Shown one piece after another: positions 1,694 to 29,612 of a DNA stretch of 37,451 nucleotides (its first letter is position 1; each line of letters begins with the position of its first letter). The notes beneath the pieces are model-generated. The model worked only from the letters and a program-made list of their open reading frames with translations, had not been told where the DNA came from and made no database searches. The stretch is from a virus. The stretch lies in IMG/VR virus record IMGVR_UViG_3300032242_003031, positions 1-37,451 of that record; one strand, given 5' to 3'. The translations under genes were made by a program, and so were the position numbers.

Positions 1694-2242
1694 GTGGTGA
1701 TTTTTATCGTGCGCAAGCCCCTTTTCGCATTCATGGCGTTCTTATTGGCGTCAGGCCCTGCGCCCGAGCCGGCCGCGCCTGATTCCGCCCCTGTCGTCGC
1801 CCAGTCGTTGCCGCCCCTGGCCGACTCATCTTGGGCTTTTACCGACAATGGAACGCTCTACCTGGTCGGCAAGACATCCGGCCAGGTGATCAAAATCAGG
1901 GCGGATAACTCATCGCCCAACATCGAACCCGAGAAGCCTCGGCCGAAGCCTGTGCCGGTTGATAATTTTCAACCTGTCGCGGCCTTTCTTTTCTTCGACG
2001 CGCAACATCTCACGGTCGATCAAGCCGCCATCAAGACGGACTCGAGTCTGAAAGATGCTGCAAGTCGTGCGGGCGTGCCTCTGTTCTGTGCTTTCGCCGA
2101 TGATCCCGACTTCACCGGCCCGACCTGGCAAGCCGCCATCAACCGCACCGGCACGCCGTGCATGGTCTTGCTCGACAAAGCGAACAAGCCAAAAACCGTC
2201 AAGATCAACTCGCGGGCCGACGTGTTGGAGGCTCTCAAATGA
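1694..2242 (+). CDS. Secreted protein with signal peptide and possible thioredoxin-like C-terminal domain
   Basis: The frame runs from GTG at 1694; in-frame GTGs at 1697 and 1709 are alternatives, and the 1709 start gives a compact signal peptide (RKPLFAFMAFLLASG). A Pro/Ala-rich linker follows, then about 85 residues (AAFLFFDAQH...VPLFCAFADDPD...GTPCMVLLD) that read like a thioredoxin-fold core. The cysteines do not form a CxxC pair, so redox activity is doubtful. No good ribosome site is visible. The stop overlaps the protease start (ATGA), so this protein and the C1 protease are probably made together and may both act outside the inner membrane. Confidence 0.55.
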   Translation: MVIFIVRKPLFAFMAFLLASGPAPEPAAPDSAPVVAQSLPPLADSSWAFTDNGTLYLVGKTSGQVIKIRADNSSPNIEPEKPRPKPVPVDNFQPVAAFLFFDAQHLTVDQAAIKTDSSLKDAASRAGVPLFCAFADDPDFTGPTWQAAINRTGTPCMVLLDKANKPKTVKINSRADVLEALK

Positions 2243-3057
2243 ATTTCGACGAAGCGGACATGACAGATCGCTTGATCCGCACCGACGACGGCGTGGAGCG
2301 AAAGCTCTTCTCGTTCCCGACTCATGAATCACTTCTCATGAGTTATGCTCCGGATTTCACCATTCCGGACGTGCCGAAAAGTGATTGGCGCGAGTTTGAG
2401 TACGACACGTCTTGGAAACGAATCGAAGACCAGGGGCAATATGGTGCGTGCGTTGGTCACGGCAGTGGCAACGGCGTTCAATGGGCCCGATGGCTCGCCG
2501 GCATGGGCCGCGACAGGCTCTCGCCTTGGTACCCGTACTCGCTCCTCTGCAACGGCCGCGACGTGGGGGCGAGCCCATATGCCGCCCTTGACTTGCTGAA
2601 AGCACGCGGAACGTGCCCGTTCGACATGGTTCCGTGGGGCACAATCAATCCCCAATGGCTGACTCCAGCCGCCCATGAGTCGGCTAAGCGTTTCCGCGTG
2701 CTGCGCGGGCCCAGAATCACCGGTTTTGATCAACTCATGTCGGCCGTGCAGCTCGGTTTTGTCGTGGTCGGCACGCTGCACGCTGACAACGGAATCAGCA
2801 CTCTTGACCAATACGGCGTGAGCCAGAATCGCCCAGGTGCGCACAACCACTGCATCCTAAAAGGTGTCGGTGCCAAGCGACTTCCAAGCGGCGAATGGGC
2901 CGTGAAGTATGAGAATTCATGGACCGCCGCATGGGGCTCGAGTGGCTTTGCGTGGGGCACGCGGGCGACGTTCGATGGTTCCTATGCCGAAGAGTTCGCC
3001 ATCGCCACGGCGGCGTTCGACCCGGCGACATACACTCCGCCAGTTCGGCTGGCGTGA
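2239..3057 (+). CDS. Papain-family (C1) cysteine protease, candidate lysis enzyme
   Basis: The 272-residue protein carries the papain-type catalytic signature in order. DQGQYGAC gives the oxyanion Gln65 and nucleophile Cys71. NHCILKGVG gives His204, aligning with the DHAV.AVGYG motif of papain. KYENSWTAAWGSSGFAWG gives Asn226 and the NSWG..WG block. There is no long prodomain and no clear signal peptide. Peptide-bond hydrolysis through a thiolate is the expected chemistry. It follows a run of small membrane proteins where a peptidoglycan hydrolase would usually lie, and no lysozyme, amidase or NlpC/P60 gene was seen in the window. A lysin role is therefore plausible but inferred. Alternatives are a virion-associated protease or an anti-host factor. 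Confidence 0.8.
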   Translation: MNFDEADMTDRLIRTDDGVERKLFSFPTHESLLMSYAPDFTIPDVPKSDWREFEYDTSWKRIEDQGQYGACVGHGSGNGVQWARWLAGMGRDRLSPWYPYSLLCNGRDVGASPYAALDLLKARGTCPFDMVPWGTINPQWLTPAAHESAKRFRVLRGPRITGFDQLMSAVQLGFVVVGTLHADNGISTLDQYGVSQNRPGAHNHCILKGVGAKRLPSGEWAVKYENSWTAAWGSSGFAWGTRATFDGSYAEEFAIATAAFDPATYTPPVRLA

Positions 3058-3364: not shown

Positions 3365-3383
3365 AACTCGGTGCCTTGGGAGA

Positions 3384-3434
3384 GGGGCCGGGCCACCGTC
3401 GCGAGACTGGGGGCCCGGCTCTTTCCGCTTTTAC
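3384..3434 (+). terminator. Rho-independent-type terminator between accessory block and tail genes
   Basis: GCCGGGCC at 3387-3394 pairs with GGCCCGGC at 3412-3419, and two or three extra pairs are possible outward. The downstream strand continues TCTTTCCGCTTTT. The stem is strong and the tail is fairly T-rich but interrupted. It separates the small secreted protein from the tail terminator gene, whose own ribosome site (GGAGG at 3436-3440) lies just after it. Confidence 0.6.
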
Positions 3435-3448
3435 TGGAGGGCTCAATC

Positions 3449-3862
3449 TTGGACATACAAACGCTCATCTTTCGCCGCTGGCAGCTGTGCGTAGAAACGC
3501 CGCTCGGCGTGCCGCTGACCACGTACGAGACCGCAACGGGCATCACGCCGCCCTATGCTTCGGCAGAGTATGCGACGAAGGATATTCCGATCAGTGCGGG
3601 GCGATCTCTTCAGGAGCACACCGTGCGAATCACGGTTTATGCTCCCGACGAGCGAAAAATCGAGGCCGTTTTTATGGCATGCGGCTTGAATTCGACAGTT
3701 CCACTAGGTTTTCACCGCGTCGAGATCGGCGACAAGACTGTCAAAGCCGTCGCCCGAATCACCGACGCGGGCCTGCCGAAGTTCGAGCCCGACCCGTCAC
3801 TCGGCGGTGGTCGGTGCTATTCACGGGTTCTCGTCTTGTTTGTGCGAACGGGGAGTAAGTAG
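3449..3862 (+). CDS. Probable tail terminator / tail completion protein
   Basis: The 137-residue product begins at TTG 3449, chosen because GGAGG lies eight bases upstream; the longer GTG frame from 3371 would run through the terminator hairpin. The composition is mixed alpha/beta with no membrane helix. It sits immediately before the tail tube gene, where siphophages place the tail terminator, the protein that caps the tube and joins it to the head. Segment IPISAGRSLQEHTVRITVYAP is typical of such beta-rich small proteins. The assignment rests mainly on gene order, since the sequence alone is not diagnostic. Confidence 0.5.
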   Translation: MDIQTLIFRRWQLCVETPLGVPLTTYETATGITPPYASAEYATKDIPISAGRSLQEHTVRITVYAPDERKIEAVFMACGLNSTVPLGFHRVEIGDKTVKAVARITDAGLPKFEPDPSLGGGRCYSRVLVLFVRTGSK

Positions 3863-11528: not shown

Positions 11529-12608
11529 TTACCCCCCCCCCCCCATCTTAACATCGGGGTGCAATTGTTCGGCAATTCGCAGGATTGAGTCTATGGTTTC
11601 CTTGGCATAACCTTCAGTGGTTCGCGGGCTCGTGTGACGCAACACCTTCTGTGCGGCCGCCATGCCGAGCTTGTCCGCGATCTCTGTGGCCAAGTTGTGC
11701 CGCAACTGGTGCGGATGCCACGGTTGAACACCAGCGCGGATCGCTGCTGTATAGACTGATTTTCGTTGCCAGCCCACGCCCCAGGGGAACCAGCGATCAG
11801 CCCATGTCGTCGGGAAGCACTCGGTCAAGATCTCGACAGCCGGCCGGGGGATGACCACAAAAGTCTCGCCCACGTGAGCGTGCGTTTTGTGCTTTTTCAA
11901 TCGGTAGATCCAATGCTCGCCGGTCATTGTCACGTCTTGTGGACGCATCGCCAGCAGCTCACCAGACCTCATGCCAGTCAGGGCCTGCACTCTGACGGCG
12001 CGGCGAATGTGTTCAGGCAGCTCGACCAGCGTCAGTTCGATTTGAGTGGCAGTCACAGGCTGCACCTTTGGATTGTCGATTGCACCTTCACGGCCTGGTG
12101 CGATTCGTTTCACGGCCTTCAGTCGTTGCCAGACCTCTGGCTGCACGAGTCCTTCTTCCACAGCCCACTGAAAGACACTCACAATCTGAGTCGCCCGACG
12201 GTTCACTGTGGTGCGCACCTGGCCGCGATTGATCAGCGCTTTCCGCACTGCCTTCAAATGGGTCGGCCCGAACTTGTCGGCCAACATGCTGCCCCACAGG
12301 TCAATCGCAGCCTGAACCGCATAAGAAAGGTTCACAGCCTCTTTTGAGCCTTGCCCCTCGTAATGCTCAACCGCATGGGCGAGGAACTTGTGGCCCAGCT
12401 CTTCCACGGTTAGCGGCTTTTGCTCAGTCTCCACCGGCGGAAAACCGCCCGTCGCAGCGATCACTTCACAAAGCTCGTGATAAGCCTGCCAACTCTCCGG
12501 CGAGTTATAAGCACCAGGGAGCAGCCGATAGTTATTGGAAAAGTAGATTCTCGCCCTTCCGGACGCATGTAAGCAGTAACGTGGACGGGAGTTAGATGGT
12601 CGTCCCAT
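11529..12608 (-). CDS. int: Tyrosine site-specific integrase
   Basis: From ATG 12608 the product has 359 residues. The N-terminal part (RPRYCLHASGRARIYFSNNYRLLPGAYNSPESWQAY, quoted as the region at residues 8-43) is the arm-type leader; residues 68-160 are a SAM-like core-binding domain; the catalytic domain follows. Visible catalytic residues are R214 (TGMRSGELLAM), a Lys in LKKHKTHAH, H300..R303 (HPHQLRH), H325 (VLRHTSPRTT) and Y334. It would recombine attP (12713-12754) with a host tRNA gene. The start is uncertain, as ATG 12638, GTG 12653 and TTG 12656 are in frame. The gene ends in four Gly codons formed by a 13-base G run. Confidence 0.93.
   Translation of the reverse strand: MGRPSNSRPRYCLHASGRARIYFSNNYRLLPGAYNSPESWQAYHELCEVIAATGGFPPVETEQKPLTVEELGHKFLAHAVEHYEGQGSKEAVNLSYAVQAAIDLWGSMLADKFGPTHLKAVRKALINRGQVRTTVNRRATQIVSVFQWAVEEGLVQPEVWQRLKAVKRIAPGREGAIDNPKVQPVTATQIELTLVELPEHIRRAVRVQALTGMRSGELLAMRPQDVTMTGEHWIYRLKKHKTHAHVGETFVVIPRPAVEILTECFPTTWADRWFPWGVGWQRKSVYTAAIRAGVQPWHPHQLRHNLATEIADKLGMAAAQKVLRHTSPRTTEGYAKETIDSILRIAEQLHPDVKMGGGG
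11532..11544 (-). repeat. 13-base homopolymer (C on +, G in the integrase message)
   Basis: Thirteen consecutive C residues on the + strand encode the last four Gly codons and the G of the preceding ATG codon of the integrase, right before its stop. Gain or loss of one base would remove the stop from frame and change the C-terminus. Such tracts are prone to slippage in cells and in sequencing, so the exact length is uncertain. Confidence 0.85.
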
Positions 12609-12712
12609 ATCGTCAGAACCGACGATTCTTAGAAACATTTTCGAAAAACTCACCAATTAGACCAGAAACCAATCCTTGAGTTAAATCAATGCTCCGCAGA
12701 GACTTCCGCAAA

Positions 12713-23663: not shown

Positions 23664-23923
23664 CAACCGAACAGACTGAAAAACTCATTCCGAACTGTGT
23701 CGGCCGGCTTGATCCGGTCATGGATGCGGTGCGTGCTGAGGACTGGCACAAGGTGGATGATCTTTGCGTCAAAGAGTGGGAGCGGCTCAACGAAAAGGCA
23801 AGCAAATATGCAAAGCTCTACACTGAATCGCGAGAAAAAGCCAATAGTGTTCGCAATTTCAAACAAGATGTGCTTTGCTCGCCTAATTTCCGTGCTGGCG
23901 TGCTCAAGGAGGCTGGCAAGTGA
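23660..23923 (+). CDS. Small early protein, unknown
   Basis: The 87-residue product starts at ATG 23660 (GGGGGCG upstream). It is charged and helical (DPVMDAVRAEDWHKVDDLCVKEWERLNEKASKYAKLYTESREKANSV), compatible with a small coiled-coil protein. The last codon overlaps the next GTG start. No domain is recognised. Confidence 0.5.
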   Translation: MTTEQTEKLIPNCVGRLDPVMDAVRAEDWHKVDDLCVKEWERLNEKASKYAKLYTESREKANSVRNFKQDVLCSPNFRAGVLKEAGK

Positions 23924-24147
23924 GCGAATATTCGCGGCATATCAGCCGGTTTGATGGTCAATGGATTGGACGATATGGTGACGACTGTGTCAGTTCTTCG
24001 TCGATTTTCGTGGTGGTCGGCTGGGTCAATCGGCATCGGGTGCGGAATAATGAAATTCCGCTCGATATCTGGCATGCCCAGCAACTGCATTGGCGGGTCA
24101 GACCCGCCGAAATCAGCGGGCGACATACTTACGCAACAGCAGTTTGA
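23920..24147 (+). CDS. Small early protein, unknown; competing frame nearby
   Basis: The 75-residue frame begins at GTG 23920, overlapping the previous stop (GTGA). It is Arg/Trp/His-rich (SRFDGQWIGRYGDDCVSSSSIFVVVGWVNRHRVRNNEIPLDIWHAQQL). A second frame, 23951-24163, also stays open and its stop overlaps the next ATG. The overlapping start favours this frame, but the choice is not certain. The function is unknown. Confidence 0.4.
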   Translation: MSEYSRHISRFDGQWIGRYGDDCVSSSSIFVVVGWVNRHRVRNNEIPLDIWHAQQLHWRVRPAEISGRHTYATAV

Positions 24148-24159
24148 CGAGGATAACTC

Positions 24160-24651
24160 ATGAATCACATGCATGCGACAGAGACAGCGGCGAAAATTGC
24201 GGCACTTGAAAGCGAGCTCAAGTCGGCCAGGCAAGAGCTCAGCTCGGCAAAACAGCATAACGCGAATCAAGCCGACTCCATTCGGGCCTTGCAAGAGCAG
24301 ATCGAGGAATTGAAAGAAGAAATCGGCGAGTGCCCCGAATACTACCGCACAAGCCCGATTCATCAGTTCATTGGCTATCAAAAAACGGTTTTGGTGCCGC
24401 TCTTGAAGTGGTTGCAGCTCAATGAAATCGCCATGCATTGCTGCTTGTCAGCGTCCGAACACTATTTCCGGATGGGGCGCAAGACAGACGACACGACGCA
24501 CGACTCCACAGCGGTGATATGGTGGCTGGATGAGGCGCAAAAAGAGTTCATGCCCATGTGGTCCGTGTGGGAAGAACTCATCGTGCCGATGCTGAAGCGC
24601 ATCAGGCCGGACGATGGGCCGATCACGCAGCCGCACGAGGACACCCGATGA
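24160..24651 (+). CDS. Early protein with N-terminal coiled coil, unknown
   Basis: The 163-residue product starts at ATG 24160 with GAGGA upstream. Residues 8-55 form a coiled coil (AKIAALESELKSARQELSSAKQHNANQADSIRALQEQIEELKEEIGE). The rest is Trp-rich and helical (VPLLKWLQLNEIAMHCCLSASEHYF; AVIWWLDEAQKEFMPMWSVWEELIVPML). The stop overlaps the next ATG. The Trp-rich part might contact a host protein; there is no motif to name. Confidence 0.5.
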   Translation: MNHMHATETAAKIAALESELKSARQELSSAKQHNANQADSIRALQEQIEELKEEIGECPEYYRTSPIHQFIGYQKTVLVPLLKWLQLNEIAMHCCLSASEHYFRMGRKTDDTTHDSTAVIWWLDEAQKEFMPMWSVWEELIVPMLKRIRPDDGPITQPHEDTR

Positions 24652-24938
24652 GCTGCACGCAAGACAACGACCACGACATGGACGCCGACGAGCCGCGAGA
24701 GGACGTTTTTTTGACATTCGCGACGACAGATGAAATCATCGCGGAATTGAAAAATCGCGGCAATAATGTGGTTTTGATCACGGACAGGGTCTTGTCCGAA
24801 GAGTGCGGCTCATCGGAATTCGTGACGGTTTGGCATGGTGGATTGTGTCAGGCCCTGGGCATGGTGGAGCGTGCCAAGACGATCATTCTGGACTGCATGG
24901 ATGCGGAGATGGAAGACGGCGAAGAGCTGCACGATTGA
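24648..24938 (+). CDS. Small acidic early protein, unknown
   Basis: The 96-residue product overlaps the previous stop (ATGA). It is acidic at both ends (DNDHDMDADEPRED; DCMDAEMEDGEELHD) around an alpha/beta middle (FLTFATTDEIIAELKNRGNNVVLITDRVL; VTVWHGGLCQALGMVERAKTIIL). Strong negative charge suggests DNA mimicry or binding to a basic host protein as possibilities. A short GGTT/TGTT-rich stretch follows before the sigma region 4 gene. Confidence 0.5.
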   Translation: MSCTQDNDHDMDADEPREDVFLTFATTDEIIAELKNRGNNVVLITDRVLSEECGSSEFVTVWHGGLCQALGMVERAKTIILDCMDAEMEDGEELHD

Positions 24939-24983
24939 CGAAGATGTTGGCCGGTTGGTTGGTTTGTTTGTTGCGGGGTACAT

Positions 24984-25265
24984 GTGGCAGGATACGCGGC
25001 GGGTGTTGGCTTTTATGATGGCGCGGATGCCGAAAGCGATGGCCTGGAGAGCCTGATCCTCAACGAGGACTTGGCCACCCTGCGCGCTGCCATGGCGCGA
25101 TTGAATACGACTCATTCGAAGGTTCTTGCGTGGAAGTTCGGGCTGGATGGCATGCCGCCCAGGTCGTTGGCTCACATCGCAATTCGCATGCGCTGGACGG
25201 TGCAGGAGACGGAACGCCAGATTGAAATTGCAATTGACGAGTTGAGGGGGTCGATCCGTGGCTGA
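24984..25265 (+). CDS. Sigma-70 region 4-like protein, one half of a split sigma factor
   Basis: The 93-residue product from GTG 24984 contains a nearly complete sigma region 4 at residues 30-90: LRAAMARLNTTHSKVLAWKFGLDG, then a helix-turn-helix PRSLAHIAIRMRWTVQETERQIEIAIDELR. This aligns with the REAKVL..RFG...TLEE.....TRERIRQIE..AL.KLR plan of sigma-70. Region 4 recognises the -35 element. The next gene overlaps it by eight bases and encodes region 2, so the pair may act together. Bacillus subtilis SigO-RsoA is a known two-protein sigma. The start is uncertain because no ribosome site is clear. Confidence 0.75.
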   Translation: MAGYAAGVGFYDGADAESDGLESLILNEDLATLRAAMARLNTTHSKVLAWKFGLDGMPPRSLAHIAIRMRWTVQETERQIEIAIDELRGSIRG

Positions 25266-25575
25266 AAAAGAGGTTCAGCGGCTCACAAACCGGCAGAAAC
25301 GCAAAGTAGAAAAATGGCTTGGCGACGCGCATAACATCGCCTTCGACAAAACCCGCACTGGCGAACTGACAGCCGACCAGATCATCGAACGAAAGCGAGT
25401 CGCGGAAGACGCCCTGATTGCTGCGGTGCTTGAATGGCAGGCCGACAAGGGGGCGACATTCCGGACATATCTTTGGCGAAAGATCCAGTGGGCCTTGATC
25501 GACGCACATCGCCGCAGCAAACAGCGCAGGAACCAGCAAATCACGTTTACAGACCTTGAATCGGAGGATGATTGA
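25258..25575 (+). CDS. Sigma-70 region 2-like protein, other half of a split sigma factor
   Basis: The 105-residue product starts at GTG 25258 inside the end of the region 4 gene. Residues 50-88 (EDALIAAVLEWQADKGATFRTYLWRKIQWALIDAHRRSK) follow the region 2 pattern GL..A...FDP.RG.KF.TYA...IR.A..D..R, including the TY aromatic site and the following helix that binds the -10 strand. Regions 1, 3 and 4 are absent. The N-terminal 45 residues are basic. With the upstream region 4 gene it could bind core RNA polymerase and direct it to late promoters; terminase follows 198 bases later. Confidence 0.75.
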   Translation: MAEKEVQRLTNRQKRKVEKWLGDAHNIAFDKTRTGELTADQIIERKRVAEDALIAAVLEWQADKGATFRTYLWRKIQWALIDAHRRSKQRRNQQITFTDLESEDD

Positions 25576-25577
25576 CA

Positions 25578-25739
25578 ATGAAACCGGAAGGCTTTCGGAC
25601 CAAGGAAGAACCCGTGAAACGGCGACACGAAGTCACCCAGATCGACACCGAACAAGTCAAAGAGCTTACGGAAAAGGAGTTGGCCGAGCTTGGGCGACTC
25701 TTTCTGGCGAAACTTCAAGGGAAGCAGTCCGCCCGATAA
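25578..25739 (+). CDS. Very small helical protein before terminase
   Basis: This 53-residue frame starts at ATG 25578, two bases after the previous stop, with GGAGG at 25562-25566. The product is charged and helical (EEPVKRRHEVTQIDTEQVKELTEKELAELGRLFLAKLQ), possibly a short coiled coil. It ends 34 bases before terminase. It is too short for a normal small terminase. It could be an accessory to packaging or to the sigma pair. Confidence 0.6.
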   Translation: MKPEGFRTKEEPVKRRHEVTQIDTEQVKELTEKELAELGRLFLAKLQGKQSAR

Positions 25740-25759
25740 TCGGCGGATATTCGGCGGAT
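25740..25759 (+). repeat. Direct repeat just upstream of terminase
   Basis: TCGGCGGAT occurs at 25740-25748 and 25751-25759, an 11-base period (one helical turn), in the gap before the terminase ATG. It could be a binding site for packaging proteins or a regulator. I did not find the pair elsewhere by eye. Confidence 0.45.
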
Positions 25760-25773
25760 GACAGATGTAAAAC

Positions 25774-27534
25774 ATGAGAGACGAACACGGCCGGTTTACT
25801 CCTGGAAACAAAGCTGGCGTGCTTACCCGATTCAAGGCCGGGAATAATGAAAATCCCAAAGGCCGGCCCAAGAAAAAGCCGATTCGCGACGCCTTGAAGC
25901 GTTTGCTGAACGACATGTCAAACGGCGAGCTTCACGCCGACATGCTCGCCAAGAGGGCTTTTGCGGGTGCGCTGAGCTGGGCGGAAGATGCGATCGACTG
26001 GGCGAAATTTATTCAAACGACCCTTGAAGGCAAGCTCGGCGAAGTGGGTGACGACGAACCGGAGGAGCCCGACACGCCCGACACCGGGCCGGAAACGGGG
26101 GCGGGTGACGTTGTCGAGACGAAGTTAGCCAGTGAGCCGAAGATTCTGCCGAAGCCCGTCACGCCGAAAGCTGGGCGGTTTAATGCGTGGCTCAAACAGG
26201 TGAGCCCCGACCGCGACTGGGACGCCCCGCATTTGCTGCTGCTGCAATCGAAGATTGAGGCGGTGAACAAGGGCGAGATCAGGCGGCTGATTGTGTCGAT
26301 GCCTCCGCGACACGGTAAAAGCGAGCTTTTGTCGATTCATGCCCTGGTGTGGTTGCTCGAACAGAACCCGAAGAGGGAAATCATCTCGGCCGGCTGGGGT
26401 GTTGTTCTGGCCCGAAAGTTTACAAGAAAGGCCCGACAACTGGCGGAACGTGCGGGGCTTGAGTTGTCCAGCAAGGTCGCCAGGGCTGGGCAGTGGGAGA
26501 CCGCCGCAGGGGGCGCGGTGTTTGCGGTCGGTGTCAAGGGCGGTGTTGCCGGCTATGGTGCGGACATCCTGATTGTGGATGACCCGGTGAAGGACATTGC
26601 CGAGGCACAGTCGCCACTACAGCGCGAGCGTGTTTGGGACTGGTTTACGTCTGAGGCGATGACCCGTCTCAGCCCGAATGGTGCCGCGATTGTAATCATG
26701 ACTCGTCGGCACGAAGCCGACCTGATCGGCAGCCTGGTCGAGGGTCGCGACAGTGAGACCGGCGAGACGGTCGAGAGCGAGGACGCCGACCGCTGGGAGT
26801 ATATCGCGCTGCCTGCCATTTCCGAAGGCGAAGGCGACGCCATTGGGCGGGCCGAGGGCGAGGCCTTGTGGCCAACACGGTTCCCGCTCTCGAATCTCAA
26901 GAAAATCCGCGAATCGGTCGGCGCGTGGATTTGGGCGGCCTTGTATCAGCAACGACCGACACCCCGTTCGGGCGGCCTTTTCGCCCAGGAATGGTTTTGC
27001 CATTTCGTGGATGCCGCGCCGGCCGGGCCGGGCGTTCGCTGGGTGCGTTATTGGGACAAAGCCTCGACGGTTGATGGTGGCGACTACACGGTGGGCGTGC
27101 TGATGGCCGAGCACGAGGGCAAGTATTACGTTTGCGACGTTGTGCGGGTGCAGGTTTCGCCCGCTGCCCGACGTGCTTTGCAGCGACAGTGCGCCGAGAC
27201 GGACGCCAAGGGAACGACGCAATGGATCGAACACGAAGGCGGATCGAGTGGCAAAGATGCTGCCGAGCTGGAGGCCCGCGAGCTGGCCGGCTTCTCGGTG
27301 AAGTTCGAGCACCCGACCGGCTCGAAAGAGGTGCGGGCCGACCCGTTTGCGGCCCAGTGCGAGGCAGGCAACGTGATTCTGGTGCGCGGGAAGTGGAATC
27401 GAAAGTACATCGAAGAGCTTTGTCTTTTCCCAAACGGCAAGCACGACGACCAGGTGGACGCAAGCTCGGGTGCGTTCGGCAAGTTGGCCGTGAAGCGGCG
27501 GATCAGGGTTGTAGGGAGCCGGAACGATGACTAA
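25774..27534 (+). CDS. terL: Terminase large subunit with fused N-terminal small-subunit-like (DUF5681-type) domain
   Basis: The 586-residue product starts at ATG 25774. Residues 1-50 (GRFTPGNKAG...FKAGNNENPKGRPKK...ALKRLL) match the PGNKANPNGRP style of DUF5681 proteins found near or as phage small terminases. An acidic Pro-rich linker follows (about 90-115). The ATPase shows Walker A PPRHGKS (177-183) and Walker B ILIVDD (265-270). The nuclease has RYWDKAS...GGDYT and HDDQVDASSGAF with catalytic Asp residues. It cuts and pumps DNA into proheads. No separate small subunit gene is seen, so the fusion may replace it. Confidence 0.92.
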   Translation: MRDEHGRFTPGNKAGVLTRFKAGNNENPKGRPKKKPIRDALKRLLNDMSNGELHADMLAKRAFAGALSWAEDAIDWAKFIQTTLEGKLGEVGDDEPEEPDTPDTGPETGAGDVVETKLASEPKILPKPVTPKAGRFNAWLKQVSPDRDWDAPHLLLLQSKIEAVNKGEIRRLIVSMPPRHGKSELLSIHALVWLLEQNPKREIISAGWGVVLARKFTRKARQLAERAGLELSSKVARAGQWETAAGGAVFAVGVKGGVAGYGADILIVDDPVKDIAEAQSPLQRERVWDWFTSEAMTRLSPNGAAIVIMTRRHEADLIGSLVEGRDSETGETVESEDADRWEYIALPAISEGEGDAIGRAEGEALWPTRFPLSNLKKIRESVGAWIWAALYQQRPTPRSGGLFAQEWFCHFVDAAPAGPGVRWVRYWDKASTVDGGDYTVGVLMAEHEGKYYVCDVVRVQVSPAARRALQRQCAETDAKGTTQWIEHEGGSSGKDAAELEARELAGFSVKFEHPTGSKEVRADPFAAQCEAGNVILVRGKWNRKYIEELCLFPNGKHDDQVDASSGAFGKLAVKRRIRVVGSRNDD

Positions 27535-28795
27535 CGGCAGCGGCGGCGGCGGATATGCGTTCGGCGAGAGCGGCCCGAACCTGAAAATTTATACCGGCCT
27601 TGGTGGCGGCGGAGGCGGCCGCAGCTTCGCTCTTCTGCCCGGTGCCAAGCACGACTGGGAACTCGAAGCCGGCCGGCTTTACCTCAACGATGTCGTTTCC
27701 ATCGCGTGCAACTGGATCGCCGAGAAGATCAATCTTTGCCCTCTCGTTGTTGAAGAAAAACAGACCGACGGGTCGTGGGTGCCGGCTTATGACACCGCAC
27801 TCTCAGATCTGTGGTTCCGCAACAACACGAATTACGACAGTTTCACCCGCGACTTGGCGATGGCACTTTCCATCGTCACGTCCGGCAATGCCTTTTTGTA
27901 CATCGAGCGCGACTCATTCGCGGGCCTGCCGATCGGCCTGCACTGGCTGGACGAACGCTACGTATTCCCGCTTTATCCGCCGACAGGCGAGCGGTATCTC
28001 GACTACTGGCGATACTTGGTGAATGGTCGGGCGCTGAACATCCCGAAAGAGGATGTTTTGCACTTCCGGTGGGGCATTGACCCGCTCAACACCCGGCTTG
28101 GTCTTTCCAGGCTCAAAGCACTCCTACGGCAGATTTGTCTGCTGAATGAGGCGGCCGGCTATTCGGTCTCGATCTTGAAGAATGGCGGCGTTCCTGGGCT
28201 GATCATCACGCCCGAAGAGGCCAACGACGAGCTTTTGGACGACGAGGGCGACGAGATCGAGCACCAGGTCAACCGCATGACGCGGGGCGACAATCGCGGC
28301 AAGACGATCAGCTTGAACCGCCGCATCAAGATCGACACCATCGGCTTTTCGCCCGAGCAAATGGCCTTGGACAAGCTCCCGAACGGGGCGATGCCGATGG
28401 TCTTGGCCGCCATCGGCACCAGCCCTGAAGTGCATGGCCTGCCGAGTGCCACAAAAACTTACGACAACTACAACACCGCGATTCAAGCCGCGTGGCGATC
28501 CGGCGTGATGCCTCTGCTGGGCTTGATTCGCTCGACAGTCGCGCGGCAGTTGATGCCCGAATTCGGGCTCGACCCGCGAAAATACCGCGTCAATCACGAT
28601 TTGTCCCATATCCCGGACCTGGCCGAAAACCTCAACGACAAGCAAAAGCGGGCTCGCGACAATTTTATCGCGGGCGGAATCTCGCTGAATGAGTTCCGCG
28701 CCGAGCTTGGCCGGCCCCCTGAACCACTCTTTGGCGACAAGTTCTTCTGGGAAATCAGCCCGCAGCAACGGGCACAGGTGGTCGGCAATGCTTGA
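27527..28795 (+). CDS. Portal protein (HK97 type)
   Basis: The 422-residue product overlaps terminase by eight bases. After a Gly-rich leader (residues 4-32), LYLNDVVSIACNWIAEKINLCPL, SGNAFLYIERD...GLPIGLHWLD and VLHFRWGIDP fit HK97-type portals, which form the dodecameric ring through which DNA enters. The helical stem/crown region (ENLNDKQKRARDNFIAGGISLNEFRAELGRPP) is near the end. Position between terminase and head protein confirms it. Confidence 0.9.
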   Translation: MTNGSGGGGYAFGESGPNLKIYTGLGGGGGGRSFALLPGAKHDWELEAGRLYLNDVVSIACNWIAEKINLCPLVVEEKQTDGSWVPAYDTALSDLWFRNNTNYDSFTRDLAMALSIVTSGNAFLYIERDSFAGLPIGLHWLDERYVFPLYPPTGERYLDYWRYLVNGRALNIPKEDVLHFRWGIDPLNTRLGLSRLKALLRQICLLNEAAGYSVSILKNGGVPGLIITPEEANDELLDDEGDEIEHQVNRMTRGDNRGKTISLNRRIKIDTIGFSPEQMALDKLPNGAMPMVLAAIGTSPEVHGLPSATKTYDNYNTAIQAAWRSGVMPLLGLIRSTVARQLMPEFGLDPRKYRVNHDLSHIPDLAENLNDKQKRARDNFIAGGISLNEFRAELGRPPEPLFGDKFFWEISPQQRAQVVGNA

Positions 28796-29612
28796 GCCCA
28801 ACGATCACAATCTCCCACTCGGCTCCAAGCTCTACCCGATCCTGGTCGGGAGCTTCAACGCCCAGGCGAAGCTCATCAAAGAGCGTTTGTCGGGCAAGAA
28901 GTCGGTTTTTTACACGCCGACCGAACTCTTGCGGCCGTCAGACAAGGGTTTGCTGGACGAGACAGAGAAGATCGTGCCCGTCATTTCGGCGATATGGGAC
29001 GCCGGAGGCAAGCGGCTTTATCGGTCGATTGGCTTTGACGCAGAACGGTGGCGAGTCAACAACGAATATCTGCGGCGTGCTATCAAAGAGTCTGTTCTGG
29101 ACTTTGCCGCAAGCACGCAGCAGACTTTTCGTGATGATTTCAATTTGAATTATGAGGAAATCAAGGACGAAATTCGTGCTGAAATCGCGGCTGGGCGGCT
29201 TGCTGCCGGCGAGACAACCGATCAATTGACGCGCCGGATTATGCATTATTTTCAGGACACAAACCGCTTCCGCGCTCGTCGGATCGCTCAAACCGAAGCC
29301 GTCAGGGCGCACCACCTCGCCACAGTCTGGTCGGCTCGCGATTCCAAAGTCGTCGTCGGCTGGCAGTGGGTTGAGACTTCGGCAAGCTGCCCGGTATGCC
29401 ACGCCATAGCAACCGACGCCAACAACCCGACAGGACGGCGGATTGTCAGGCTCGGCCAGAATTTCGCCGTGCGCGGCAATAATCCGACATACAAGAATAT
29501 TCAATTCCCGCCGGCTCACCCGTTTTGTCGGTGCACAATCAAGGCGATTCTCGATGCCGCCTATTCGGGCGACTCCAAGCCGATCACCTGGTCGCCGGCC
29601 TGGGCGGCTTAA
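28788..29612 (+). CDS. Minor head / head morphogenesis protein (Mu gpF-like)
   Basis: The 274-residue product starts at ATG 28788, overlapping the portal end. The C-terminal half has the Mu F/SPP1 gp7 signature: FRARRIAQTEAVRAHHLATVWSA, SASCPVCHAIA, then FPPAHPFCRCTI with conserved His and Cys. The N-terminal half is helical. Such proteins associate with portal and assist prohead assembly or DNA entry. The stop is followed by a hairpin before the protease gene. Confidence 0.85.
   Translation: MLEPNDHNLPLGSKLYPILVGSFNAQAKLIKERLSGKKSVFYTPTELLRPSDKGLLDETEKIVPVISAIWDAGGKRLYRSIGFDAERWRVNNEYLRRAIKESVLDFAASTQQTFRDDFNLNYEEIKDEIRAEIAAGRLAAGETTDQLTRRIMHYFQDTNRFRARRIAQTEAVRAHHLATVWSARDSKVVVGWQWVETSASCPVCHAIATDANNPTGRRIVRLGQNFAVRGNNPTYKNIQFPPAHPFCRCTIKAILDAAYSGDSKPITWSPAWAA

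Follow-up and report, generated by a model that had tools for sequence, protein, structure and literature searches.

The gene pair

A virus genome record of IMG/VR (IMGVR_UViG_3300032242_003031; 37,451 bases, analysed over its whole length and referred to as the window) carries on its + strand two small overlapping genes, at 24984–25265 and 25258–25575, whose products have the sequence and the predicted fold of sigma region 4 and of sigma region 2, respectively. To our knowledge, sigma factors are nearly always single proteins. An earlier reading of this DNA, the original prediction, had taken the two genes for a split sigma factor encoded by a phage. The overlap of eight bases lay where that reading had placed it, and this overlap and the GTG start of the region 2 gene were identical in all five loci that carry the pair. 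The loci are the window and four contigs (L001–L004), which together represent two lineages; the relatives are known solely from IMG/VR catalogue DNA. The overlap points to translational coupling of the region 4 and region 2 genes. The region 4 gene starts with GTG in the window; in the relatives the equivalent codon is ATG. Coding potential backs both genes of the pair as well as the two open reading frames (ORFs) that follow, i.e. the 53-residue ORF and the terminase ORF (Table 1).

Table 1. Position and main properties of the gene pair and of other features of the window.
Feature	Position	Strand	Properties
Candidate region 4 half of split sigma	24984..25265	+	93 residues; GTG start
Candidate region 2 half of split sigma	25258..25575	+	105 residues, about regions 2.1–2.4; GTG start
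Eight-base overlap	25258..25265	+	From GTG start of region 2 gene to TGA stop of region 4 gene
Shine-Dalgarno-like G-rich run before region 2 start	25242..25257	+	ttgagggggtcgatcc; kept in 5/5 loci
Conserved gene directly upstream of pair, end of early operon	24648..24938	+	96 residues; no known family; no Pfam match; homologue in relatives
Conserved ORF between region 2 gene and terminase	25578..25739	+	53 residues; homologue in relatives; no convincing Pfam match
Large terminase subunit, first clearly late gene	25774..27534	+	PHROG 38 (1.4e-91); Pfam Terminase_6N, Terminase_6C
Integrase	11529–12656	-	

Sequence and predicted structure of the two proteins

Residues 14–88 of the region 4 protein matched region 4 of full-length sigma factors in NCBIfam. 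RpoS was the best match (E of 3.8e-5, profile positions 196–268 of 285), and the protein also matched the cyanobacterial RpoD (1.5e-4), RpoD/SigA families and others; the homologue from a relative gave a sigma match with an E-value of 7.9e-4. When the family profile was compared with PDB sequences SigB came out best, at a non-significant 0.09. AlphaFold models of both proteins were built from four-sequence alignments. The model of the region 4 protein (predicted local distance difference test score, pLDDT, of 74) has helices at residues 30–38, 42–52, 62–69 and 73–92, with a helix-turn-helix within 62–92, and a short low-confidence segment precedes the helices at the N-terminus. All 50 PDB matches listed by Foldseek were sigma factors, and many consisted of a sigma-4 domain on its own. 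The Foldseek E-values were all above 1e-3 for both models, as is usual with small helical domains, and the specificity of the predicted fold for sigma factors over the many other helix-turn-helix proteins is telling. An alignment to a solved sigma showed that E75, R/K78 and Q79 of the recognition helix are kept across the family, at what we take to be the places of E585, R588 and Q589 of sigma-70, residues that contact the −35 element.

The region 2 protein matched region 2 of sigma factors over residues ∼47–105 (NCBIfam; FliA/WhiG at 8e-4, SigI at 1e-3, and others), and its homologue from a relative matched FliA/WhiG at 7e-4. WhiG was the sole match of the family profile among PDB sequences (E of 9e-4). 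The AlphaFold model had a pLDDT of 78, and sigma region 2 was present in 48 of its 50 listed Foldseek matches, which included the N-terminal domain of SigE (template modelling score, TM, of 0.8), region 2 of RpoS and RpoD, and WhiG; the remaining two, both of one epitope scaffold, ranked low among the matches. Among viral structures resembling the model, full-length sigma factors ranked top. The F-x-T-Y motif and the following amphipathic helix of FliA/WhiG are retained, as are the aromatic and basic residues of region 2.3–2.4, and a basic tail comes after the last helix. Two acidic residues, E44 and D51, lie on a helix that may be the counterpart of the clamp-binding helix of T4 gp55, which binds the clamp through E70/D74/E77 (PMC7892883).

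The two proteins are unrelated to each other in a profile comparison, and each gave region 4 or region 2 matches alone. The domain assignments of the original prediction were thus borne out: a region 4 with helix-turn-helix in the first product, a region 2 with the TY and the following helix in the second, and neither with the other parts of a sigma factor. It had also named unrelated predicted folds as a possible refutation, and the folds obtained were those of sigma domains. The sigma likeness was confined to the pair, in that none of 10 further small window proteins had a sigma match in the same NCBIfam library. The region 2 gene was also the sole sigma-like place found with a region 2 profile, run on the window only, and with an ECF profile, run on the window and on a related genome of 38,049 bases (G001, made up of the contigs L044 and L045).

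Conservation and selection

In the four related contigs, which form one lineage, the pair is followed by the same genes as in the window. The identity between the window and these relatives was 53–54% for the region 4 protein, 76–77% for the region 2 protein and 74–75% for the terminase. Ratios of nonsynonymous to synonymous substitution (dN/dS, Nei-Gojobori) between the lineages were 0.26–0.29 for the region 4 gene and about 0.09 for the terminase; for the region 2 gene the ratio was 0.07 against L003, with synonymous sites saturated against L004. Within the lineage of the relatives the values were 0.17 (region 4), 0.04 (region 2) and 0.09 (terminase). On these ratios both genes are under purifying selection. 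Sequence matches, predicted folds, co-conservation and purifying selection together make the pair more than a chance resemblance.

Scans of the IMG/VR peptides with either protein or with the alignments yielded no relatives beyond the four contigs. A tblastn search of 50,697 phage records gave chance-level matches at most, the best for region 2 (E of about 10) lying inside an 11.5-kb hypothetical gene, and a scan of 84,980 bacterial and archaeal species genomes (GTDB) turned up no sequence relative of the pair. Terminase relatives at 31–50% identity were used as anchors to seek further pairs. Among the viral ones, the region 2 gene was present in the two already known relatives alone, and the ORFs upstream of five genomic terminase relatives held no such pair. 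Searches with portal and RecT added no member to the family.

Genome setting

The phage of the window is a temperate phage. Genes for an integrase, an anti-repressor, a RecE-like exonuclease, RecT, a replication O-like protein and a RuvC-like resolvase come before the pair; terminase, portal, head morphogenesis, protease, capsid and then tail genes come after it. The genome G001 is collinear with the window and circularly permuted, and neither has terminal repeats of 10–200 bases, which is consistent with nearly complete genomes assembled from DNA that is circular or packaged by the headful. Given this permutation, the late block appears to begin at 25774, reach the record end and continue from the record start to about 10.7 kb, which would put the pair exactly at the early-late junction. 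The distance of some 200 bases to the terminase in the original prediction was accurate (198 bases from the end of the pair to the terminase start), with the addition that the gap holds the conserved 53-residue ORF, the product of which may act as a partner or as an anti-sigma factor.

Some further features were seen in these genomes. A long hairpin rich in G+C, with a U-rich tract after it, lies in the late block at 3379–3426, at the 5′ end of a tail-side ORF (3371–3862), and again at about 17281–17330 of contig L044. The window and G001 have it in nearly the same form, amid otherwise diverged DNA; its fold z-scores are about −2.6 and −2.1, it has no Rfam match, and it looks like a terminator or attenuator. 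The late block also encodes, at 2239–3054 of the window, a protein resembling papain-type (C1) cysteine peptidases, with a weak match to PHROG 16701 (0.006). On the lysogeny side of G001, near the integrase, several extra predicted ORFs are present (contig L045, about 23816–29513, − strand), which are without counterparts in the window.

Comparison with known two-protein systems

For SigO-RsoA (YvrI-YvrHa) of Bacillus subtilis we take SigO to be the region 4 protein and RsoA the region 2 protein. The HTH_16 profile (PF12645), presumably the RsoA-type profile, did not match the window at E≤10, and the comparison with SigO-RsoA was made via this profile and published descriptions. In the literature SigO is described as sigma 4 and RsoA as sigma 2, with the operon written yvrI(sigO)-yvrHa(rsoA) (PMC8103513; PMC10028694); contrary to these papers, another assigns the two domains in the opposite sense (PMC10141391). 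In SigO-RsoA as in the phage pair, a single operon encodes region 4 and region 2 as two separate small proteins, the region 4 gene coming first. The reversed order that the original prediction had presented as a novelty is therefore not a reversal, because the yvrI-yvrHa operon is region-4-first as well (PMC8103513). The difference is that SigO-RsoA is a chromosomal stress regulator of oxdC and not a phage pair.

A phage system similar in function is that of T4, in which gp55 and gp33 have been termed "a split sigma" (PMC2988020). It is likewise a two-protein late system of a phage, with a region 2 homologue on the clamp and a partner on the beta-flap. However, T4 gp33 is structurally unrelated to sigma 4 and does not bind DNA alone (PMC7892883), and the T4 pair needs the sliding clamp. 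In the phage pair, the region 2 protein would be the promoter recognition subunit on homology alone; its partner, in place of a flap-binding protein without the sigma-4 fold, is sigma-4-like in sequence and predicted structure. In SPO1, gp34 and gp33 jointly facilitate late transcription and relatives of gp34 have been defined as sigma factors (PMC3601020). SPO1 differs in being a lytic Bacillus phage, and the analysis yielded no evidence that its gp33 is a clean region 4 protein or that either protein is related in sequence to the pair. In staphylococcal phages the early genes end with that of the late activator (RinA, Ltr), whose promoter follows directly (PMC13123087). By the gene map, the pair similarly comprises the last early genes, directly upstream of the packaging genes. 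RinA and Ltr, in contrast, are single activators and not a bipartite sigma, and Ltr acts at a putative sigma-A-type promoter; scans of NCBIfam and PHROGs at E≤10 gave no RinA/Ltr family for either protein, the presence of RinA/Ltr models in these libraries being unconfirmed.

A two-protein late sigma of a phage, which the original prediction had called notable in a region-4-first form, has functional precedents in T4 gp55/gp33 (PMC2988020) and SPO1 gp34/gp33 (PMC3601020). A phage pair with true sigma domains in both halves remains unusual, and we found no description of such a pair in the literature searched (most subscription journals were outside the search). Tn916 orf7/orf8, considered as a second split-sigma precedent, was dropped, as the papers found do not describe it so.

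Interpretation and alternatives

We are moderately confident that the two proteins are the two halves of one bipartite, SigO-RsoA-like factor of the sigma-70 family for late transcription. The likeliest reading of the data is a pair that acts as a two-subunit sigma does; the likeness to SigO-RsoA refers to the way of working and makes no claim of descent. Together the proteins probably redirect the host RNA polymerase to the phage late genes. We infer the binding of the partners to each other and to the polymerase, the recognition of late promoters and the late timing as follows. Expression of the pair would come last in the early operon, in the manner of the RinA/Ltr late activators, and coupling of region 2 translation to the region 4 gene would ensure joint production of both halves. 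The region 2 protein would dock on the beta-prime clamp of the host RNA polymerase and open the −10 DNA, and the region 4 protein would dock on the beta-flap tip and read a −35-like element. Both halves would then replace the host sigma, leading to transcription of the downstream terminase, portal, capsid and tail genes. A role as late switch is suggested by the position at the early-late junction, with replication and recombination genes before the pair and terminase to tail genes after it. There is about an even chance that the pair is an obligate two-subunit phage sigma with both halves genuine sigma domains, i.e. an AND gate of the SigO-RsoA type that serves a temperate phage as its late switch.

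Several observations weigh against a bipartite sigma factor. The profile scores of the pair are modest and under curated cut-offs. Profile searches of the kind suggested in the original prediction returned sigma families in NCBIfam; Pfam, which was less sensitive than NCBIfam for both proteins, gave Sigma70_r2 below its cut-off (E of 0.019 for the window and 0.0051 for a relative, 15–17 bits against a curated cut-off of 24) and no match of Sigma70_r4 to the region 4 protein. W433/W434 of the primary sigmas are absent from the region 2 protein, as they are from WhiG. The family is small, with five loci in two lineages. The shared motif upstream of late genes that the original prediction had suggested looking for was not found: phylogenetic footprinting of the gaps near the pair and before late genes gave no conserved late-promoter motif, a scan with the sigma-70 consensus found no late promoter, and an exact two-block dyad search, itself of little power, found no promoter-like dyad. 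Unusually conserved DNA was also sought inside the region 2 gene, and none was found. The promoter tests have little power because just two lineages are available.

The two proteins might act separately, the region 4 protein as a RinA/Ltr-like late activator on DNA or on the flap beside the host sigma, and the region 2 protein as a gp55-like initiation factor. T4 gp55 starts basal transcription with its region 2 domain alone (PMC7892883), and the unequal rates of evolution (dN/dS of about 0.27 for region 4 and 0.07 for region 2) are in line with separate roles. The conserved overlap and the constant co-occurrence in 5/5 loci nevertheless argue for a joint product, and the halves complement each other within one protein family; we therefore regard separate action as unlikely, though worth some weight. 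Shut-off of host transcription would be another use of two sigma-like proteins, which as decoys on the beta-flap and the beta-prime clamp would displace the host sigma and not initiate. Although both predicted folds are core-binding parts of sigma and the pair lies in or beside the early operon, the residues for contact with DNA are kept (on the recognition helix of region 4 and, as aromatic and basic residues, in region 2.3–2.4) and a position next to the terminase fits late control better, so that a decoy function is improbable.

The position of the region 4 gene also raises the question of whether its product is a packaging protein, such as the small terminase subunit, its sigma likeness reflecting no more than a shared helix-turn-helix fold. 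The gene lies just upstream of the large terminase, the usual place of a small terminase gene, and no separate small terminase gene was recognised among the window proteins scanned. Against this, the 50 listed structural matches are all sigma region 4 and not other helix-turn-helix proteins, the adjacent gene encodes the matching region 2, and the large terminase has an N-terminal DUF5681-like segment of its own (25774–26000, just under the Pfam cut-off). A packaging role is on these grounds very doubtful. Weak profile scores would also be expected of decaying remnants of a former full-length sigma. This is hardly credible, since the order of region 4 before region 2 could not come from a simple break of one gene and since in each lineage the two frames are open and conserved and evolve under purifying selection; the dN/dS values largely refute decay. 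A frameshift within one sigma gene was rejected on similar grounds, the domain order being reversed and both frames conserved.

If the pair is indeed a bipartite sigma factor with true sigma domains in both halves, split sigmas would have arisen in viruses too, and the pair would provide a mechanistic link between the cellular split sigmas and the gp55/gp33 type of T4. With 93 and 105 residues, the two proteins would form a minimal system for determining which parts of a sigma factor are needed, and they would offer a way to ask how promoter-reading domains cooperate without a covalent linker. They might also serve as a compact AND gate for engineering.
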